A stretch of 64,000 nt of DNA, from positions 434,001 to 498,000 of the forward strand of contig NZ_JAMXST010000003.1 in NCBI RefSeq assembly GCF_024124905.1. The letters are read 5' to 3'. This document shows, one piece after another, positions 24,300 through 37,668 of this stretch (the first letter of the stretch is position 1; every line of letters starts with the position of its first letter). The stretch is from Cellulosimicrobium cellulans. GTDB taxonomy: Bacteria; Actinomycetota; Actinomycetes; Actinomycetales; Cellulomonadaceae. Made by a program: the position numbers and the translations under genes. The notes under the pieces are model-generated. The model was not told the DNA's origin, made no database searches, and was given only the letters and a program-made list of their open reading frames with translations.

Positions 24300-27200
24300 G
24301 TGCACAGAACTCCACTAGGCCACCGATGGTGGTCTCGTTACGCCGCCGCGGCGGCGTCGGCCGCCGTGCTGGTACCGCTGACCATCGGCGGCGCCTCGGC
24401 CCACCCCGGGCACGAGCAGGACAGCACCGCGGTCACCGCCGCCGCGGACGCCGAAGCGGCTCTCGACTGGGACAGCTACGAGAAGGTGCTGCTGAGCAAG
24501 AACACCGGTGAGCCGATCGACCTCGCCGTCCTGCCGGACTCGCGGGTCCTCCACACCTCGCGCGACGGCGTCGTGCGCCTCACCGACTCCGCGACGGGCC
24601 TGACCACCCAGATCGCGAAGCTCGACGTCTACGCGAACTCCGAGGACGGGCTCCAGGGCATCTCCCTGGACCCGAACTTCGAGGAGAACCACTACCTGTA
24701 CCTGGTCTACGCGCCCCGCGTCATGGAGGGCACGTCGCCCTCCGGCGTGGAGTACCCGGAGACGACCCCGTCGGGCAGCGCGCCGAACTCGCTTCCGGCG
24801 GGCGAGGACGAGAGCTACTGGGACCGCTGGCTCGGGTACAACCAGCTCTCGCGGTTCACGTGGGACCCGGCGACCGACTCCATCGACCTCTCCACCGAGC
24901 GCGCGATCCTCAAGGTCGACGCGCAGCGCGGCCAGTGCTGCCACGTGGGCGCGGACATGGCGTGGGACGCCGACGGGAACCTGTTCCTGTCCACCGGTGA
25001 CAACACGCCGGCGGGCACGCCCGGCGCCGACGGGTACGCGCCGAACAACAACGCCCCGGGCATGAACCCGGGCTTCGACGACCGTCGCGGCGCGGGCAAC
25101 ACCAACGACCTGCGCGGCAAGATCCTGCGGATCAACCCGATCGAGGACCTCGCCCCCGGCACCGAGGTGGGCCCGGGGAGCACGTACACGATCCCCGAGG
25201 GCAACCTCTTCGACGACCCGCAGTACGACGACGTCCAGGACCTCGTGCGCAACGAGACCTACGTCATGGGGCTGCGCAACCCGTTCCGGATCGACTACGA
25301 CATCGAGTCCGGCGCGCTCGTGTGGGGTGACTACGGCCCCGACGCGGCGAACGCCAACCCGAACCGCGGCCCCATGGGCTACGTGGAGTGGCAGCTGACG
25401 ACCGAGCCGATGAACGGTGGCTGGCCGTACTGCCACGGCCCGAACGCGAACTACAACGAGTGGGACTTCGCGACGCAGACGCCGGGCGAGTGGTTCGACT
25501 GCGAGGCCGGGGCGAAGAACAACTCCACGTGGAACACGGGCCTCGACGTCCTGCCGCCGGCGACGGCGCCGCAGGTCTACTACGGCGACCGCCCCGGCGA
25601 CCAGCCCGAGCTGCTCGACCCGCTGGTCGAGCTCGGCGGCGGCGGTCAGGCGCCCATGGGCGGGCCGATCTTCCGCTCCGCCGACTACCCGGACGCGCCG
25701 GGCAAGTTCCCCGCGTACTGGGACGGCAAGCCGTTCATGGCGGAGTTCTCGCAGGACTACGTCGTCGCCTTCACGCTGGACGAGCTGTCGTCGGCCGGTC
25801 AAGTCACCGCGGTCGAGGACTTCCTGCCCAACGCGCACCTGGAGACGGTCAACCAGCCGATCTGGGACAACGTCATGGACATGGAGTTCGGCCCCGACGG
25901 CACGATGTACGTGCTGGAGTACGGCGACGGCTTCTTCCGCCAGAACCCCGACGCGGGCCTGTACCGGATCACCTACGGCTCCGACAACAAGACCCCGCGC
26001 CCCGCGATCTCCGCGTCCCCGACCTCGGGCGGGGACGCGCCGCTCGAGGTGACCTTCGACGCGTCCGGGACCTCGGACGCCGAGACCCCGAACGCGGGCC
26101 TGACCTTCGACTGGGACTTCAACTCCGACGGCGTGTACGACGCCCAGGGCGAGACGGTGACCCACACGTTCACCGAGCGCGGCCAGTTCAACGTGCAGCT
26201 GCGCGTCACCGACGAGGGCGGCAAGTTCGGTCTGGCGATCCAGCAGATCACGGTCGGGAACACCGCTCCGGAGATCACGCTGAGCCAGCCCGACGGCGCC
26301 ATCTTCAACTGGGGCGACGCCGTCCCGTACACCGTCTCCGTGCACGACGCGGAGGACGGCGACACCCCGGTGTGCCGCAACATCCAGTACACCTTCGGGC
26401 TGGGCCACAACACGCACGCGCACCCCGAGGTGAGCGGTCGGGCCGCGGACACGGAGGCCGGCTGCGGCTTCACGATCCAGACCAGCCCGGACGCCGTCGA
26501 GCACGGTGAGGGCGAGAAGATCTTCGGCACCCTCGTCGTGACCTACAACGACCAGGCGCAGGGCACCGTCCCGTCGATCCGCGGCGAGGCCACCCACATC
26601 CTCAAGCCGCAGGCGCAGCAGGCCGAGTGGTACGACGCGGCCGAGGGCGTCGAGGTCGTCGAGGACCCGGCGGCGCACGCCGGGCGCTACGTCACCTCGT
26701 TCGACGCGGGCGACTCCTTCACCTACCAGCCGCTGGCGCTCGTCCACGCGCCGACGGGCGAGGCGATCGACGAGATCACCGTCCGCGGCAGCGGCGAGGG
26801 CACCGTCACGCTGAGCTGGCAGGCCGAGGGGTCGGAGTCCGCCGAGCCGCTGGCCGACTTCGCCTTCACGGGCGCGGGCTGGCAGGACGTCACGAAGACC
26901 CTGGGCAGCGTGCCCGAGGGGTCGGGCTCGATCGTCGTGACGACCACCGGCGGCGTCGACGTCGACCAGCTCTCGTTCGCCGTGGGCGACGGCACCACCG
27001 AGCCGGTCACCATCCCGGTGGAGAAGGTCTCGATGCAGCTGTTCTCGCTCAGCTCGTGGAGCCGCCAGATCGGCTGGGAGGGCGTCTACGACCGCCTGGG
27101 CGAGATCGGCTTCCAGAACGTCGAGCCCTTCGGGTCGAACTTCTCCGGCCTCACGGCCGAGCAGGCTCGTGCCCAGTTCGACGCGGCCGGTCTTCGTGTC

Positions 27201-28085
27201 CCGTCCTCGCACTACACCGTGAACGAGGGCACCTTCGACGCGACCCTCGCGTACGTCAAGACGCTGGGCCAGGAGTACGTGGGCTCGGGCGGCTTCCCGT
27301 CCCCCGGCATCGGCGGGGGCCTGGAGAACGTGCTGGCCACGGCCGACGCCATGGACCGTCTCGGCGAGCGTTCGGTCGCGAACGGCACCGGCAAGCTGTT
27401 CGGTCACAACCACGACCAGGAGTTCAACACCAAGTACGAGTACAACGGTGAGCTGACCTCCGCGTGGGAGATCCTCGTGGCGGAGACGAACCCCGAGTAC
27501 GTCGCCTTCGAGCTGGACACGGCCTGGGCGGCGAACGCCGGCGTGGACGTGCCGGCGCTGATCGACGAGTACGCGGACCGCATCGAGCTCCTGCACATCA
27601 AGGACGCGACCAACCTCAACGCGGGTGGGCGTCCGACGTTCACCAACCTCGGTGAGGGCGACATGCCGCTGCAGGACATCCTGCGGGCCGGTCTCGATGC
27701 GGACGTGGCGTACTTCGTCATGGAGTACGACGGCTCGCCGGCGAACGACGTGTTCTCCGTCGAGGGCTTCGAGTACCTCACCGGCATCCCCGCCGGTGCG
27801 GACACCCCGGAGGTCGACGTGACGGTCGAGCCGCGCTGCATGGCCGGCAAGGTCTACGTCGCGGTGCGTGCGCTCAACGCGGACGACTCCGCGCTGGACG
27901 TCGCGATCGAGACGCCGTTCGGCAGCAAGACCTTCGAGGACGTGGCCCCGGGCAAGAACGCCTACCAGTCGTTCAACGCTCGTGCCACGGAGATCGAGGC
28001 CGGTGAGGTGACCGTCACGGTCACCGACCCGGACGGAGCGACGGACACGGTCACGGCCGCGTACGACGCGCGGTCGTGCAGCTGA
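24300..28085 (+). CDS. secreted PQQ-type sugar dehydrogenase / PKD / TIM-barrel isomerase fusion
   Basis: A 1261-residue secreted protein. GTG 24300 follows AAGGAGG. After a signal peptide ending near SAHPGHE come: a GSDH six-bladed propeller (about 55-560; SEDGLQGISLDPNF, CHVGADMAWDADGNLFLSTGDN, YVMGLRNPFRIDYD, NVMDMEFGPDGTMYVLEYG), a PKD domain (563-650; FDWDFNSDGVYD), an Ig-like segment with HNTHAHPEVSG, a CBM6/35-like domain (about 770-905), a sugar-phosphate isomerase/epimerase TIM barrel (907-1163; FGHNHDQEF, VAFELDTAW, ELLHIKD), and a C-terminal beta domain (1170-1261) also found in the SurE product downstream. Known: GSDH enzymes oxidise sugars with PQQ. Inferred: it oxidises and rearranges a sugar outside the cell. 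Domain identities are from pattern only. Confidence 0.85.
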   Translation: MHRTPLGHRWWSRYAAAAASAAVLVPLTIGGASAHPGHEQDSTAVTAAADAEAALDWDSYEKVLLSKNTGEPIDLAVLPDSRVLHTSRDGVVRLTDSATGLTTQIAKLDVYANSEDGLQGISLDPNFEENHYLYLVYAPRVMEGTSPSGVEYPETTPSGSAPNSLPAGEDESYWDRWLGYNQLSRFTWDPATDSIDLSTERAILKVDAQRGQCCHVGADMAWDADGNLFLSTGDNTPAGTPGADGYAPNNNAPGMNPGFDDRRGAGNTNDLRGKILRINPIEDLAPGTEVGPGSTYTIPEGNLFDDPQYDDVQDLVRNETYVMGLRNPFRIDYDIESGALVWGDYGPDAANANPNRGPMGYVEWQLTTEPMNGGWPYCHGPNANYNEWDFATQTPGEWFDCEAGAKNNSTWNTGLDVLPPATAPQVYYGDRPGDQPELLDPLVELGGGGQAPMGGPIFRSADYPDAPGKFPAYWDGKPFMAEFSQDYVVAFTLDELSSAGQVTAVEDFLPNAHLETVNQPIWDNVMDMEFGPDGTMYVLEYGDGFFRQNPDAGLYRITYGSDNKTPRPAISASPTSGGDAPLEVTFDASGTSDAETPNAGLTFDWDFNSDGVYDAQGETVTHTFTERGQFNVQLRVTDEGGKFGLAIQQITVGNTAPEITLSQPDGAIFNWGDAVPYTVSVHDAEDGDTPVCRNIQYTFGLGHNTHAHPEVSGRAADTEAGCGFTIQTSPDAVEHGEGEKIFGTLVVTYNDQAQGTVPSIRGEATHILKPQAQQAEWYDAAEGVEVVEDPAAHAGRYVTSFDAGDSFTYQPLALVHAPTGEAIDEITVRGSGEGTVTLSWQAEGSESAEPLADFAFTGAGWQDVTKTLGSVPEGSGSIVVTTTGGVDVDQLSFAVGDGTTEPVTIPVEKVSMQLFSLSSWSRQIGWEGVYDRLGEIGFQNVEPFGSNFSGLTAEQARAQFDAAGLRVPSSHYTVNEGTFDATLAYVKTLGQEYVGSGGFPSPGIGGGLENVLATADAMDRLGERSVANGTGKLFGHNHDQEFNTKYEYNGELTSAWEILVAETNPEYVAFELDTAWAANAGVDVPALIDEYADRIELLHIKDATNLNAGGRPTFTNLGEGDMPLQDILRAGLDADVAYFVMEYDGSPANDVFSVEGFEYLTGIPAGADTPEVDVTVEPRCMAGKVYVAVRALNADDSALDVAIETPFGSKTFEDVAPGKNAYQSFNARATEIEAGEVTVTVTDPDGATDTVTAAYDARSCS

Positions 28086-28098
28086 TCTGATCCCGAGC

Positions 28099-28136
28099 GC
28101 CGGGTGAGGCGGGCGTCCGACACCGTCTCACCCGGC
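28099..28136 (+). terminator. terminator of the sugar-dehydrogenase fusion gene
   Basis: A perfect 10-bp stem (GCCGGGTGAG / CTCACCCGGC), extended by one outer C-G pair and further inner pairs, beginning 13 bases after the stop. Confidence 0.65.
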
Positions 28137-28422
28137 GACACCGGGGCGCCACGTGGGGCGGCGGCCGATGCCGCCCCACCCTCTCCACGGTGGTGCGCCC
28201 CCCGGCGGCGCCGGCACGCCCCGCAGCGGGCGCACCACCTCCTCACGATCCCTCGCGGACGCGGCAGTGTCGCCGCGCCTCCTCGCGACCGAGGGTCGAG
28301 ACGGCAGGACGACGGGGTCCTGGCAGTCCGACCGCTCCGGAGCGCGTCGGTCACGACGACGTGACCGACGGACCCGATCGACGTCACGTCGGTCCCCACC
28401 ACTCACATCCAGGAGCACACCC
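28137..28422 (+). other. 286-bp gene-free leader region of the surE-like gene
   Basis: I see no coding gene here. It contains a perfect 11-bp hairpin at 28345-28370 (CGTCGGTCACG / CGTGACCGACG, 4-base loop), 52 bases before the ATG at 28423. It is likely to be in the 5' untranslated region, or a second terminator. The ribosome site AGGAG at 28411-28415 precedes the start. Confidence 0.4.
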
Positions 28423-29724
28423 ATGACCGCACGTACTCTTCGACGCGCCCTGCTGGCCGGATCGGCGGCCCTCGCGGCAGCCTTCGTCGCCGCGCTCGGC
28501 CCTGCCTCTGCGTCGACCGTCCCGGACGGCCCCCTCGAGGGTCTCCGGATCGTCATCTCCAACGACGACTCCATGCAGAACTCCCGGCCGAACGGCTCCG
28601 ACGGGGAGGGGCTGTACGAGCTGCGCAAGGTCTTCTGCGACGCCGGTGCCGACGTCGTCGTGGTCGCGCCCTGGGGTTACCAGAGCGGGGCCGGGACCGC
28701 GGTGACGAACAGCGGCACGTTCCACATGCAGGAGGCGGACACGCTCCCCGAGCGCTACGCCGCAGACTGCGGCGACGCGCCGAGCCAGGGTGCCGTGTTC
28801 GGGGTGTGCCAGCCGATCGACGGGCGGTGCACGCCGGAGTCGCGCAGCGCCACCCCCGTCGACACGGTCAAGCTCGCCGTCCGCGGCGGCCTGCAGCACG
28901 TGCTCGGGTGGACGGAGCGCCCCGACCTGGTGCTGTCCGGCATCAACTCCGGACCCAACCTCGGCTCGTCGGTGAACGACTCCGGGACGGCGGGGGCCGC
29001 CCTGTCCGCCCTGTCCGTCAACACCCCCGGCTTCGCGATCAGCGCGTCGGCGACCGGCGCGGACCACCAGGCGGTCTACGAGCGGACCGCGCGGTTCGCC
29101 GTCCGGTACGTGGAGGAGGTCGTCCGGCAGGACGCGCTGACCACCGAGTACGTCACGAACATCAACTTCCCGCGTCTCACGGCGGACCAGAGCCCGGCCG
29201 GCGTCGTCGTCGCCCCGGTGGGCACCGGCACGACCGCGCGCCACTCCTACAACCCGAGCGGCGAGCGGTCCTTCACCGTCGGCCTCAGCGGGTGCCAGGC
29301 CGGCGACACCACGTGCGTCGCGGAGACCCGTCCCGACGCCGACTACCTCATGAACCGGGCCGGCTACATCACCGTCACGCCGCTGACGCCCGACCGCACC
29401 CACCTCGCCGCGACGCCCGAGATCGGCTCGGTCATCAGCGAGCTGTCGACGGTGGCGGTACGGGCCAGCGCGACCGGCCGCTGCATCGCCGGGACCGCGT
29501 ACGTCGCGGCGCTCGTCCGCAACGACGACACCGTGCCCCTCGACGTCACTCTCTCGACGCCGTTCGGGGAGAGGTCCGTGAGCGACGTCCAGCCCGGTGC
29601 CGCCGCGTACCAGTCGTTCAGCTCCCGGTCGCGCTCCGTCGAGGCCGGCACGAGCCGGCTCACGGCCTCCGGCGACGGTCGGAGCGTCGAGGTCGACGTC
29701 GACTACGCCGCCGTCGCCTGCTGA
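28423..29724 (+). CDS. secreted SurE-family phosphatase with extra C-terminal domain
   Basis: A 433-residue exported phosphatase. The signal peptide (1-31) ends at GPASA. The SurE domain (about 38-330) has the metal-binding ISNDDS, the ligand motif SGINSGPNLGSSVNDSGTAGAA (family SGxNxGxN...YSGTVgAA), and VAPWGYQSGAGTAV. A C-terminal beta domain (about 343-433; GRCIAGTAYVAALVRNDD...LSTPFGERSVSDVQPGAAAYQSFSSRS) is closely similar to the C-terminus of the preceding 1261-residue protein. Known: SurE removes phosphate from nucleotides and polyphosphate, usually in the cytosol; secreted forms are less studied. The position beside a secreted sugar enzyme suggests nutrient scavenging. A 14-bp-stem terminator follows. 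Confidence 0.88.
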   Translation: MTARTLRRALLAGSAALAAAFVAALGPASASTVPDGPLEGLRIVISNDDSMQNSRPNGSDGEGLYELRKVFCDAGADVVVVAPWGYQSGAGTAVTNSGTFHMQEADTLPERYAADCGDAPSQGAVFGVCQPIDGRCTPESRSATPVDTVKLAVRGGLQHVLGWTERPDLVLSGINSGPNLGSSVNDSGTAGAALSALSVNTPGFAISASATGADHQAVYERTARFAVRYVEEVVRQDALTTEYVTNINFPRLTADQSPAGVVVAPVGTGTTARHSYNPSGERSFTVGLSGCQAGDTTCVAETRPDADYLMNRAGYITVTPLTPDRTHLAATPEIGSVISELSTVAVRASATGRCIAGTAYVAALVRNDDTVPLDVTLSTPFGERSVSDVQPGAAAYQSFSSRSRSVEAGTSRLTASGDGRSVEVDVDYAAVAC

Positions 29725-33537: not shown

Positions 33538-36500
33538 GTGTCAGTCGCCATCCGAGGCAGGGCGTGGGCCGCCGCCCTCGGCCTGCTCGCGCTGCTCGCA
33601 TCGTTCGTCGTCCCGACGGCCGCCGGAGCGCTCCCGACGGCCTCCGCGCAGACCGTCCCCGATCGTGAGTTCGTGCTCACGCACGGCCACGTGGACGGGT
33701 TCGAGACCATCTACGACGCGGCGAGCGGCAGGCTCGTGCTGAGCGTCAAGGACGACACCCGCATCCACGACACCGGCGCCGTCTTCCGCGTGCCGGAGAC
33801 GACGACGTTCGCCTACCAGGACGAACGGTCACGTACGACGCTGCCCCCGGCGACCGCGGGATGGGCGTTCCTCGGGAAGCACGGCGGCACGACGGCGTGG
33901 CTCGGCACCCAGTCCGGCGGGGACCAGACCTACGCGCCCTGGGTGGGGTGGAGCACAGAGCGGCTGCTGACGAGCCTTGCCGGGACGGGCGTCACGCCGG
34001 CAGCGGGCACGCCAGTGAGCCTCGACGTGCGCGTCCAGGGCCCGGGGGACGTGTTCTCGTTCCAGAACGACGCGTTCGGCGGGCCGATCAACGTGTACGT
34101 GAACACGCTCACGGGGGCCGGCACGATCCCGGTCGCGCAGAACGCCCACGTCCACACGAACTGGGTCTTCACGGCCGAGGGCGACTACACGTTCGTCGTG
34201 ACCCCGTCCCTGGCCACGGCCGACGGCCGGACGATCGCCGGGTCCTCGGCCACCTACCACTTCCGGGTCGGCGAGCGTGCGCCCGAGCCGGTGACGACGA
34301 CGGTCGCAGTCACCTCGGACCATGGGTCGTACCTCGAGGGTCAGTCGGCGGTGTTCACCGCGTCGCAGGAACCCGTGACGGAGCTGGCGGTGTACCGGTG
34401 GGAGGTCGCGGCGGCGGGTTCGCAGGAGTTCGTCGCGGTGGAAGGTGCCTCGGGCGCGTCGTACGAGCGCGAGCTGACCCTCGCGGACGACGGTGCGCAG
34501 GTGCGCGCCGTGCTGCTGGACGGGAAGCGGGTGGTGGGCACGTCCGAGCCGGTCACTCTCGCCGTGACTGCGGCCGCCGCGGCGCACACGGTGCAGATCA
34601 CCGGGCTCCAGGACTGGTACGCCTTGAACAGCGAGATCCTTCTTGAGGCCGTGATCGAGCCGGCAGTCGAGGATGCGACCTTCCGCTGGGAGCGACGGTT
34701 CGTCGACGCCTCGGAGTTCACGCCGTTCTACCCGACCGTGTTCCGCGACGCCGACCTGACGCTCCTGGCGAACGAGTACGCCACCGGCGTCGCATGGCGC
34801 GTCGTCGCGCTAGATGCGCAGGGCGCCGAGCTCGCGATGTCCGAGCCGGTCGTGATCCCCGGGGTCCGCGAGGTCCCGTGGGAGGCACCCGTCCTCGACG
34901 ACACGCCGGTCGTTCTCACCGAGGGCCACATCGACCTGTTCAGCCTGTACCTCGACGCCGGCCGCCTCGTGCTGTCGGTCGTCGACGATACGCGGCAGCA
35001 CGCGAGCCGGAAGGTCGACCGCGCACCGAGCGCGGTGACGGTGTCCGTCGACCCGGAGCTGAGCGCCACGCCGGTGCCGGACACGGGCTACGACTTCCTC
35101 GGCGAGCCCGGGAACGAGGTCTACGTGCTGCCGGGGTCGGGGAAGACAGGGCTGCCGTGGCCCGGGTGGTCGACCGAGCAGCTCGAGAAGAGCCTGCCCG
35201 CAGGCGAGACGGTCTCCGACCTGCGCTACGAGATCGAGGCCGAGGGTCCGGGTGACGTGTCCGCCTGGGCCGGGGCGATGAACGGGTCGCCGAGCGTGCA
35301 CTTCGACAGCGGCGACGACGAGCCCGACGTCATCTCGGTCCACCTGGGCGCGCACGTCCACACCAGCTGGGGCTTCACCGAGCAGGGCACCTACACGCTC
35401 CGCGTCACCGCGAAGGGCTCGCTGTCCGACGGCACCTCGCTGGTCAGCGACACCGAGACCTACACGTTCCAGGTCGGTGAGGCGGCACCCGAGCCGGTGA
35501 CGACGACGGTGACGGTCACGTCGAACAAGGACTCCTACGCCGAGGGCGAGTCTGCGGTGCTCACCGCGTCGCAGGATCCGGTGACGGACCTGGTGACGTA
35601 CCGGTGGGAGGTCGCGGAGGCGGGCTCGGACGAGTTCGTCGCGGTCGAGGGCGCCTCGGGCGCGTCGTACGAGCGTGCGCTGACCACGGCGGACGACGGT
35701 GCACGGGTGCGTGCGGTACTGCTGGACGGTGAGCGGGTCGCGGGCACGTCGGAGCCGTTGAGGCTGGACGTTACCGCGAAGCCGGACCCCGGTCCCGGCC
35801 CGAACCCGGACGCGTCGGAGCCCAACCGTGAGTTCGTCCTGAACAAGGGCCACATCGACGGTTTCGAGACCACCTACGACGCCTCGAGCGAGGAGCTCGT
35901 GCTGTCGGTGAAGGACGACACGCGTCTCTACGACGCGGGTCCGACGTTCCGCAGGCCCGCGGACGTGACCATCGCCTACGAGGACGCCCGGGCCGTGCAA
36001 AAGCTCCCCGCGGCCCAGGGCAACTGGTCGTTCCTCGGCGAGTACGGGGGCGCCGACGCGTGGATCGGCACCCAGACGGGCGAGGACCAGACCTATCTGC
36101 CCTGGATGGGGTGGAGCACCGAGCGTCTGCTGTCCACCCTGCAGGGAACCGGCATCACTCCGGCCGCGGGCAGCCCGGTCTCGCTCGCGGTCGAGGTCAC
36201 CGGCCCGGGCGACGTGTTCACGTTCCAGAACGACTCCTTCGGCAACCCGATCAACCGGTACGTCGACACCACGACGTCGGCGGGCGGCACCATCCCCGTC
36301 ACGGCCAACGCGCACGTGCACACCAACTGGGTGTTCACGGCCGAGGGTGACTATCACCTCACCGTCACGCCGTCCCTCAAGACGGCCGACAACAGGACGA
36401 TCACCGGTGACAGCGCCGACTACCACGTCCGCGTCGGTGCCTACATGCCGCCGTTCGAGCCGCTGCCCGAGGACCAGCTCACCGACGCCAACCGGGGCGG

Positions 36501-37668
36501 GCTGACGCTCGACAAGGACAGCTACCCGCTCGGGTCGGACGCCGTCGCGTCGTCGTCGGCACTCACGGACGCCCGCAGGGTCGTCGCGTACGTCTACTCC
36601 GAGCCCACCTCGGCCGGTGAGCTGACGGCGGCCGACGGTGCGGTGACGGTCACGATCCCGTCGACGGTCGGGACGGGCGCGCACAAGCTTGCGCTCTACG
36701 ACTCGCCCACGGGTGAGCTCCTCGGCTGGGCGCCGTTCACCGCGACCGCCGCCGCGAACGACGTCGGAGGCGCAGGAGATGGCGACGGCGGCGGTGCTGG
36801 CGCCGGGGACGGCTCGGGTTCCGATGCCGGGACGGGCGCAGGCTCGACGACGCCGGAGCAGTGCATCCCGACGCCCGTCACGAGCGAGGTCAAGACCGGC
36901 GCCGTCAGCGGCATCACGGAAGGTCACTTCGACTTCGGGTCGATGGTGGAGAACGGCACGCTCGTCGCGAAGACGAAGGACGACCGCAAGCAGCCGCCGA
37001 GTTGGGTCGACCCAGAGTCCCTGACGTTCCGGCTCGGGGACGCCGCCAAGCGCGAGGTTCCCGCCGGCGCCGACTTCGCCTTCCTGGGCAAGGCCGGGGC
37101 GACGATCTGGTCGATCGGCCAGGTCCAGGAGCCCGGTGTGCCCTGGGTCGGGTGGAACACGCAGCACCCTTCGCTCATCGAGGCGGCGGCCGGACCGGTG
37201 ACGTACACGCTGGATCGCGTCGACGGCCCCGGAAAGCTCGGGGTCTACGCCACCGGGAACTTCGGCGGGGTGGGCACCAAGTACTTCGGGACGATGGACG
37301 GGTTCCCGCGCTCGACGTCGGTGCCGCTCAACCAGCACGTGCACGGCAACTGGGCCTTCAGCGAGCAGGGCGTCTACAAGGTGACGTTCACGCTGTCGGT
37401 GCCGCTGAAGAGCGGCGGCACGGTCTCCGATTCCGCGACGATCACGTTCTCCGTCGGGGACAGCTCGGGTACCGCGACGAAGACGACGTACGTCGGCAAG
37501 ACCGCGTCGGGCGAGGACTGCGAGCTGAGCGCCGACCAGAAGGCGGCACTGGCGACGACTGGTGCCGACCCCGCGAGCGCTCTCGCGCTCGGTGCCCTCC
37601 TGCTCGTCGCCGGTACGACGCTCTACGGCGCCTCCCGCAGGCGGCGCGGCGCGCGTTCGACCGTCTGA
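33538..37668 (+). CDS. surface-anchored choice-of-anchor M repeat protein with sortase signal
   Basis: A 1376-residue wall protein, first gene of the zinc ABC operon. GTG 33538 follows AGAGAGGA. A signal peptide ends near ASAQ. Four anchor-M repeats lie at residues about 43-242, 455-645, 760-965 and 1125-1310; each begins GH(V/I/F)D, has a DD pair, FLG..G, (P/A)W.GW.T and ends (A/Q)HVH(T/G)(N/S)W.F...G.Y. Two near-identical Ig-like domains (about 250-345 and 652-747) separate repeats. The C-terminus LATTG, a hydrophobic helix and RRRR form a sorting signal of the LAxTG type used by class E sortases. Known: these repeats (TIGR03769 group) accompany actinobacterial metal-type ABC transporters. 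Inferred: GHxD and HxH bind zinc at the surface. Confidence 0.85.
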   Translation: MSVAIRGRAWAAALGLLALLASFVVPTAAGALPTASAQTVPDREFVLTHGHVDGFETIYDAASGRLVLSVKDDTRIHDTGAVFRVPETTTFAYQDERSRTTLPPATAGWAFLGKHGGTTAWLGTQSGGDQTYAPWVGWSTERLLTSLAGTGVTPAAGTPVSLDVRVQGPGDVFSFQNDAFGGPINVYVNTLTGAGTIPVAQNAHVHTNWVFTAEGDYTFVVTPSLATADGRTIAGSSATYHFRVGERAPEPVTTTVAVTSDHGSYLEGQSAVFTASQEPVTELAVYRWEVAAAGSQEFVAVEGASGASYERELTLADDGAQVRAVLLDGKRVVGTSEPVTLAVTAAAAAHTVQITGLQDWYALNSEILLEAVIEPAVEDATFRWERRFVDASEFTPFYPTVFRDADLTLLANEYATGVAWRVVALDAQGAELAMSEPVVIPGVREVPWEAPVLDDTPVVLTEGHIDLFSLYLDAGRLVLSVVDDTRQHASRKVDRAPSAVTVSVDPELSATPVPDTGYDFLGEPGNEVYVLPGSGKTGLPWPGWSTEQLEKSLPAGETVSDLRYEIEAEGPGDVSAWAGAMNGSPSVHFDSGDDEPDVISVHLGAHVHTSWGFTEQGTYTLRVTAKGSLSDGTSLVSDTETYTFQVGEAAPEPVTTTVTVTSNKDSYAEGESAVLTASQDPVTDLVTYRWEVAEAGSDEFVAVEGASGASYERALTTADDGARVRAVLLDGERVAGTSEPLRLDVTAKPDPGPGPNPDASEPNREFVLNKGHIDGFETTYDASSEELVLSVKDDTRLYDAGPTFRRPADVTIAYEDARAVQKLPAAQGNWSFLGEYGGADAWIGTQTGEDQTYLPWMGWSTERLLSTLQGTGITPAAGSPVSLAVEVTGPGDVFTFQNDSFGNPINRYVDTTTSAGGTIPVTANAHVHTNWVFTAEGDYHLTVTPSLKTADNRTITGDSADYHVRVGAYMPPFEPLPEDQLTDANRGGLTLDKDSYPLGSDAVASSSALTDARRVVAYVYSEPTSAGELTAADGAVTVTIPSTVGTGAHKLALYDSPTGELLGWAPFTATAAANDVGGAGDGDGGGAGAGDGSGSDAGTGAGSTTPEQCIPTPVTSEVKTGAVSGITEGHFDFGSMVENGTLVAKTKDDRKQPPSWVDPESLTFRLGDAAKREVPAGADFAFLGKAGATIWSIGQVQEPGVPWVGWNTQHPSLIEAAAGPVTYTLDRVDGPGKLGVYATGNFGGVGTKYFGTMDGFPRSTSVPLNQHVHGNWAFSEQGVYKVTFTLSVPLKSGGTVSDSATITFSVGDSSGTATKTTYVGKTASGEDCELSADQKAALATTGADPASALALGALLLVAGTTLYGASRRRRGARSTV

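Follow-up and report, generated by a model that had tools for sequence, protein, structure and literature searches.

The shared C-terminal region of two neighbouring genes of Cellulosimicrobium cellulans belongs to a large family of terminal domains that is uncatalogued in Pfam-A and NCBIfam and that behaves like an address for the cell surface. Both genes lie on the plus strand of the 64,000-nucleotide stretch analysed here (the window), which is part of a genome of 4.67 Mb (G000). The first encodes a fusion protein, in which a glucose/sorbosone dehydrogenase (GSDH) propeller of the pyrroloquinoline quinone (PQQ) type, a PKD domain and a TIM barrel precede the C-terminal domain (CTD), and the second encodes a secreted SurE-type nucleotidase with the same ending. 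The fusion is best read as an oxidase-lyase. The joint reading that we favour, to which we give about an even chance of being correct, is that the CTD is a portable non-covalent surface-attachment module and that the fusion is an exported two-step glycoside cleaver. Once exported, the folded CTD would use a putative face formed by the conserved Tyr20, Arg24, Tyr56, Ser58 and Arg62 (numbering of alignment A3) to bind a single shared component of the envelope of the producing cell, and this binding would retain functionally unrelated enzymes at the cell surface. The propeller of the fusion would oxidise a sugar hydroxyl, with C3 being the required position, and the Mn-type barrel would then act on the 3-keto-glycoside so formed, cleaving it by beta-elimination. 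For the CTD, we infer that its carriers are exported and retained at the cell, that it has a disulfide, which face it binds with and that it has a binding partner.

The original prediction had noted a close match between the ends of the two proteins; this match holds up, and it reaches far beyond the pair. An alignment of the fusion and SurE tails spans 82 columns with 44% identity and has a local score of 164, compared with a mean of 27.8 (s.d. 5.2, maximum 61) in 5,000 shuffles, and the two tails share a profile family [E 7.7e-43 for the fusion (positions 2-95) and 102.5 bits for the SurE tail (positions 1-82); both CTD profiles include these two tails themselves], so the likeness is one of true homology. 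Searching the fusion tail against its own genome returned 55 rows, of which 47, with the fusion itself included, reached E ≤4.2e-13, and an iterated profile applied to the fetched stretches identified 47 open reading frames with a CTD at ≥77 bits. In all 47 the domain, some 82-95 residues long, is present as one copy at the very end of the protein, with no more than 10 residues after the profile match. Signal-peptide-like starts are found on the fusion and SurE, and a candidate is present in each of the 47 carriers according to a heuristic scan [a simple charge-hydrophobicity-AxA search of stop-to-stop frames, as opposed to a trained predictor, with most matches not inspected singly]; three of these candidates are located far inside long frames, 793 to 1035 residues from the start.

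Building a profile of the domain to find other carriers, as had been proposed along with the original prediction, proved productive beyond this genome as well: all 17 genomes of the genus that were searched contain CTD matches, with 25-63 per genome. Within the order, the CTD occurs in 36 of 248 genomes and 16 of 86 genera, where at most 22 candidates were scored per genome and the per-genome counts are hence lower bounds; in a sample of the phylum it occurs in 4 of 296 genomes, all from the same order. A scan of related loci (80 of 381 retained; 79 loci kept) gave named records from Cellulosimicrobium, Oerskovia and one labelled Sphaerisporangium, and a plasmid collection contributed two Clavibacter, one Nonomuraea and one Cellulosimicrobium record. 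The terminal position is maintained in 111 of the 112 CTD copies at the related loci (L074-L152), the single exception being a frame that departs from the domain half-way. We considered that the CTD might be a known domain under another name and rejected this, since scans of the 47 single CTDs and the two whole proteins gave weak matches only for the domain, with nothing better than E 0.0041 in Pfam-A or E 0.0017 in NCBIfam (library cut-offs, shown for the first CTD member only, were not reached). Comparison of the CTD sequence with the PDB likewise gave only weak matches, the best of them to designed Ig-like proteins at E 0.005, and no title or abstract opening listed by the CTD-aimed searches of an open-licence collection names a CTD-like domain (coverage that extends to full text only for passages of PMC10167667).

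Alignment A3 comprises 108 rows, namely 106 of the 108 distinct relatives' tails (two tails were left out) and the two tails from the window. The consensus starts with RC[LM]AGKxYVAVRATN, continues through TPFG, PGxNAYQSFxxR and AG, and ends in YxAxxCG, with 27 of the 47 own copies ending in CG. Arg13, Gly42, Gly52, Phe59 and Arg62 are invariant in all 108 rows, and Gly17, Ala55, Tyr56 and Gln57 each vary once. The flanking first and last cysteines are both present in 44 of the 47 own copies and both missing in the remaining three; that the pair is kept or lost together suggests that the two are bonded, and they are probably joined by a disulfide. The three cysteine-less CTDs (L056:520-765, L052:2415-2648 and L047:1970-2215) belong to proteins that keep signal-peptide-like starts. 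The predicted model of the CTD is a seven-strand beta-sandwich (mean pLDDT 97), and strand alternation, considered without coordinates, would place Tyr20, Ala22, Arg24, Tyr56 and Ser58 outward on one sheet, beside Arg62. A Foldseek search with this model returned no match at E ≤0.001, and the VIA comparison gave Z ≤9.7, to many unrelated Ig/PKD-type domains; the fold is a common one, and thus no family assignment follows from structure.

The proteins that carry the CTD are diverse. Pfam scans, which covered 46 of the 47 carriers (all but C4_61824; for three of them, the frame scanned was truncated at the locus boundary), revealed glycan-active enzymes [GH2, GH10, GH13 pullulanase, GH30, GH43, GH51-type arabinofuranosidase, GH92, GH97, GH127 and PL8], an esterase, a GDSL lipase, M28 and S8 (subtilase) peptidases, purple acid phosphatase, 5'-nucleotidase, endonuclease/phosphatase, PAP2, BNR repeats and SurE. 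The carriers also include five GSDH proteins (the fusion and four others), three 3-keto-disaccharide hydrolase domains over cut-off and four ThuA proteins, and a second AP_endonuc_2 barrel is found on one more carrier besides the fusion. Several carriers have no catalytic family at E 1e-4 (e.g. L034 and L047). A substrate common to all of this cargo is hard to imagine, which argues for an address as opposed to a substrate-binding module. Nine CTD carriers are gathered within 53 kb at G000:C7:92056-145062, seven of them with a match to GH43 (in five), to a GH51-type family or to GH127; it looks as though a whole arabinan/arabinoxylan locus had been labelled with the CTD.

Homologues of the fusion illustrate what can take the place of the CTD. 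Ten GSDH and barrel chains without a CTD were found in six other genomes of the order. Their ends are of LPXTG type in two genomes [G067, with LPNTG and LPDTG tails seen by eye, one of which was scanned without an anchor model at E 0.01; and G245, with an LPTTG tail, LPXTG_anchor 16.7 against a cut-off of 15.9], surface layer homology (SLH) domains in two [G147 and G133, 24.3-30.8 bits, cut-off 20.8; both G147 chains run off contigs], and C-terminal GDWNGDGTDT repeats in two [G225 (L166) and G137 (L170)], for which Pfam and NCBIfam gave no family name in the tails scanned. An eleventh chain, from G245 (L172), in which BLAST showed the barrel only, also has an LPTTG tail. LPXTG sortase tails and SLH domains are, like the CTD, terminal and used independently of cargo, and they fill the same slot in the fusion homologues of four of the six genomes; the CTD differs from both in being a predicted folded beta-sandwich with a likely disulfide. 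Neither the fusion nor SurE has an LPXTG-type motif with membrane segment and basic tail, as both end in the CTD with a cysteine within the last two residues, and neither matches SLH (PF00395) at E up to 1. It is the terminal position, the conservation, the diversity of cargo and the wall anchors in the slot in four of six genomes that lead us to propose surface attachment.

For the pullulanase and 5'-nucleotidase carriers, whose homologues we inspected as the best 30 loci each (own included) of 79 and 121 genomes matched, the picture is mixed. Ends resembling LPXTG or SLH, identified by regular expression only, occur in 8 of 29 pullulanase and 6 of 29 5'-nucleotidase homologues from other genomes, two further pullulanases end with a bare membrane segment, and none of these homologues has a CTD. 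The slot thus sometimes, not always, holds an anchor, and these homologues weakly support surface attachment. Among nine loci with GH92 homologues in other genomes, four are truncated at the locus edge and five show no anchor.

Turning to the chemistry of the fusion, the original prediction had joined a PQQ-type dehydrogenase, a PKD domain, a carbohydrate-binding-module (CBM)-like domain and a sugar isomerase barrel in one exported chain. GSDH, PKD_4 and AP_endonuc_2 all score above their Pfam cut-offs, whereas the CBM-like label is weak because CBM_6 falls below its cut-off (Table 1). Isomerisation is probably the wrong chemistry, and the barrel is better named a 3-keto-glycoside 1,2-lyase type, as profile, predicted fold and active-site residues all point in this direction. 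The barrel profile (alignment A4) matches 8tcd at E 4.7e-21 and 8bvk at E 4e-17; these belong to a set (8tcd/8tcr, 8tcs, 8tct, 3obe, 3l23 and 8bvk) that comprises the only PDB sequence matches at E <1e-5, and the titles describe 8tcd/8tcr and 8tct as 3-keto-beta-glucopyranoside-1,2-lyases and 8bvk as the Agrobacterium tumefaciens O-glycoside beta-eliminase AtOGE, while 3obe and 3l23 have no assigned function. In the Foldseek search, in whose listing 8tcs is absent, two lyases, AtOGE and 3obe/3l23 occupy the nine leading rows (1.8e-15 to 6.6e-12), with the next group beginning at 1.3e-9, and the lyases and AtOGE precede other rows by two to six orders of magnitude. The site residues of AtOGE, according to PMC10628242, are His66, His132, His134, Asp163, His189 and Glu233, plus Glu161; the first six align with SSH, HNHD, ELD, HIKD and MEYD of the barrel, and their counterparts do not vary in any of the 20 rows of A4. 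Lyases AL1 and BT1 (8tcd, 8tcr, 8tct) and AtOGE (8bvk) have in common with the fusion a TIM barrel and six metal/catalytic His/Asp/Glu residues in register; the fusion barrel, unlike theirs, is exported, placed behind a PQQ-type propeller and followed by the CTD. In the AtOGE system, oxidation falls to a separate flavoenzyme (PMC10628242).

In all 8 aligned rows, the propeller retains the His (CCH) and Arg (RNP) of the GSDH motifs, and it has these catalytic-type residues in common with the solved GSDH proteins 2ism, 2g8s and 7cdy, to which similarity is local only (phmmer 2.2e-6 at best) and to which the fusion adds the PKD domain and the lyase. In G044 and G117, an unfused dehydrogenase gene and a barrel gene adjoin each other, and this adjacency, together with the fusion itself, supports a joint reaction. 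The domains, the active-site residues in register and the occurrence of fused and split-neighbour versions elsewhere underlie the view that the fusion is probably an exported enzyme that oxidises and then eliminates; that C3 is the site of oxidation, that PQQ is the cofactor and that the two reactions are coupled is what we infer. The proposal that one exported chain would carry oxidation and a second step stands, but the arrangement is not unique, given the ten other chains in six genomes. Two barrels in a row are found in five of those ten chains and at five loci of the genus (L074, L075, L078, L080 and L092).

Several observations weigh against the joint reading. No anchor known to the scan is present in 19 of the 29 pullulanase and 23 of the 29 5'-nucleotidase homologues, and the closest pullulanases inspected, 77-79% identical, simply stop without a CTD. 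In G238 the CTD (L178:8120-8812) is followed by two chitin-binding-like units, recognised by eye; this copy is the sole non-terminal one among 11 listed CTD frames other than fusions, and its arrangement would suit a general binding module as well. A receptor did not emerge: eight low-copy loci share only CTD carriers between them in a crude partner-gene test, which selected the frames of greatest length and, in L177 and L178, overlooked even the CTD frame. With regard to the fusion, epimerases also appear in the fold search of the barrel, at E 3e-9 and weaker, and AtOGE Glu161 has no conserved counterpart (consensus FQLD in A4). Own-genome searches gave no PqqE over the cut-off, in a search without positive control among the 14, and the solved GSDH relatives are not known to be C3 oxidases.

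The CTD might instead be a carbohydrate-binding module that targets an external glycan, such as a fungal or plant wall, and not the surface of the producer. Many carriers are glycosidases, and chitin-binding-like units not only follow the G238 domain but, again by eye, also end two 5'-nucleotidase homologues (L184 and L190). We nevertheless consider this unlikely, as the cargo includes SurE, 5'-nucleotidase, endonuclease/phosphatase, PAP2, subtilase, M28 peptidase and GDSL lipase, and as the CTD is single and terminal in 47 of 47 proteins while several of the carriers hold other carbohydrate-binding domains internally. Moreover, the best CBM family on the 47 CTDs is CBM_35, at E 0.0053 in two of them, with the cut-off of 28 bits out of reach.

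For the barrel, the alternative is a true sugar isomerase or epimerase, consistent with the Pfam name (xylose isomerase-like), with the epimerases of the same superfamily in the fold search and with the varying Glu161 counterpart. The lead of the lyases and AtOGE in that search, and the restriction of the PDB sequence matches at E <1e-5 to them, 8tcs and two unassigned relatives, make this unlikely.

The CTD might also act as a signal by which a dedicated, undescribed surface-display machine sorts or processes its substrates, by analogy with the type IX secretion system (T9SS), whose C-terminal sorting domain is likewise a single Ig-like domain at the end of dozens of unrelated exported proteins. 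The single terminal copy in all 47 proteins, the conserved last residues, the independence of cargo and the 25-63 matches per genus genome would fit such a signal. T9SS differs in that the host of the CTD has no outer membrane, and no sorting-domain model is among the 19 NCBIfam families matched by the 47 CTDs at E up to 10. Since, in addition, the crude test placed no partner gene beside CTD genes at the eight low-copy loci, three paralogues lack both cysteines and the G238 copy is not terminal, we regard a sorting signal as quite improbable. Equally, a mere stabilising cap without a partner would agree with the common Ig-like fold and with the closest pullulanases managing without the CTD; it seems very doubtful, as Arg13, Arg62, Tyr56 and Gln57 are retained in 107-108 of 108 rows, in our judgement beyond the usual needs of sandwich folding. 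Least probable of all is a dockerin-like docking domain assembling carriers on a scaffold, for which near-invariant polar and aromatic residues and the many glycan-breakdown enzymes with one domain in common could be cited, because general scans of 46 of the 47 carriers gave no dockerin or cohesin family (no scaffold-aimed search was made), and peptidases, SurE and PAP2 appear ill-suited to one complex.

These considerations also bear on the suggestion that the domain may attach the two enzymes to the wall or to each other, or put them on a common route of export or attachment. A common tie to wall or route is what we prefer in the light of the whole family, whereas a tie between the two enzymes is not supported. 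We rejected a special link between the neighbours, because the tail is common to 47 proteins of the genome and SurE lies beside none of 13 other fusion loci. The secreted SurE occurs in 2 of the 17 genus genomes, the own genome and one more of the same species, where by coordinates it again lies about 0.5 kb after the fusion. No SurE catalytic domain is found at 13 loci with a whole or partial fusion orthologue (L074-L084, L092 and L093; stretches of ≤12 kb), and a search of 197 further genomes of the order yielded no match to the secreted SurE at E 1e-40. A second SurE of the own genome lies at G000:C8:138281, and the SurE of the window scores below the cut-off of each of 13 NCBIfam equivalogs listed. 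Local gene conversion is not supported either, because closer relatives exist elsewhere for each tail. SurE is only row 45 of the 47 strong rows in the search with the fusion tail; 43 own-genome rows are closer, the closest being 64% identical (G000:C7:96883). The SurE tail itself resembles the ends of unrelated carriers from other species (57% over 81 residues) more closely than it does that of the fusion. The secreted SurE is a species-level neighbour of the fusion, and since the two are seen together only in this species, the likeness of the neighbours reflects separate use of a genus-wide module.

Cellulosimicrobium is known as a source of wall-lytic enzymes. In all 17 genomes of the genus that were searched, an uncatalogued domain labels dozens of exported proteins. 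If the CTD is an anchor, it would show which enzymes stay on the cell, explain the C-terminal regions of many annotated enzymes and provide a tag for display. The fusion, if correctly read, would combine oxidation and elimination in one exported chain and cleave glycosides in this way instead of hydrolysing them. A more far-reaching version, which we hold tentatively as possible rather than probable, is that the CTD is the address label of a new actinobacterial system of surface display or retention, and that the fusion belongs to an exported oxidative glycan-cleavage suite carried by it. This suggestion arises from the four additional GSDH, one AP_endonuc_2, three 3-keto-disaccharide hydrolase and four ThuA carriers.

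Table 1. Coordinates of the fusion, the secreted SurE and their parts in the window
Feature	Position	Strand	Basis or remark
Fusion protein: GSDH, PKD, CBM6-like, TIM barrel (putative 3-keto-glycoside lyase type), CTD	24300..28085	+	1261 aa (1261 codons); GTG start at 24300 preceded by AAGGAGG site; stop ends at 28085
Fusion, signal-peptide-like segment	24300..24401	+	Basic n-region, hydrophobic core and ASA ahead of presumed mature part; sequence and heuristic scan
Fusion, PF07995 match within the PQQ-type glucose/sorbosone dehydrogenase propeller	24510..25346	+	GSDH 76 bits, cut-off 25; propeller seems to extend beyond the match to about 25970
Fusion, PKD domain	25998..26225	+	Pfam PKD_4 44.2 bits, cut-off 27
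Fusion, CBM6-like stretch	26619..26978	+	CBM_6 17.4 bits, below Pfam cut-off of 28.9
Fusion, TIM barrel, putative 3-keto-glycoside 1,2-lyase / beta-eliminase type	27012..27803	+	AP_endonuc_2 32.2 bits, cut-off 31.1; Pfam name xylose isomerase-like
Fusion, CTD, predicted beta-sandwich up to stop codon	27798..28082	+	First Cys at 27837; genome search, profile, model
Secreted SurE-type 5'/3'-nucleotidase with CTD	28423..29724	+	433 aa (433 codons); ATG at 28423; stop ends at 29724
SurE, catalytic domain PF01975	28549..29223	+	Pfam 118.6 bits, cut-off 22.1
SurE, CTD	29443..29721	+	First Cys at 29482; pairwise alignment, profile

Elsewhere in the window, positions 33538-37668 encode a surface protein of the Choice-of-anchor M / TIGR03773 family, and hence other anchoring routes probably coexist with the CTD in this genome. 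Two divergent CTD-like cases of the own genome, C6_400502 and C6_201615, were dropped before alignment A2. In the first, the divergent domain is terminal [L038:3-1427, plus strand; G000:C6:400502-401929], at the end of a protein whose N-terminal part we take, by eye from a sequence motif, to be asparaginase-like. In the second, it is internal and repeated: a single frame [L049:1619-5755, minus strand; G000:C6:201615-205754] combines sigma-70 regions 2 and 4, zf-HC2, a hydrophobic segment and three CTD-like stretches, and is possibly a membrane-spanning sigma factor with its CTD-like domain outside the cell.

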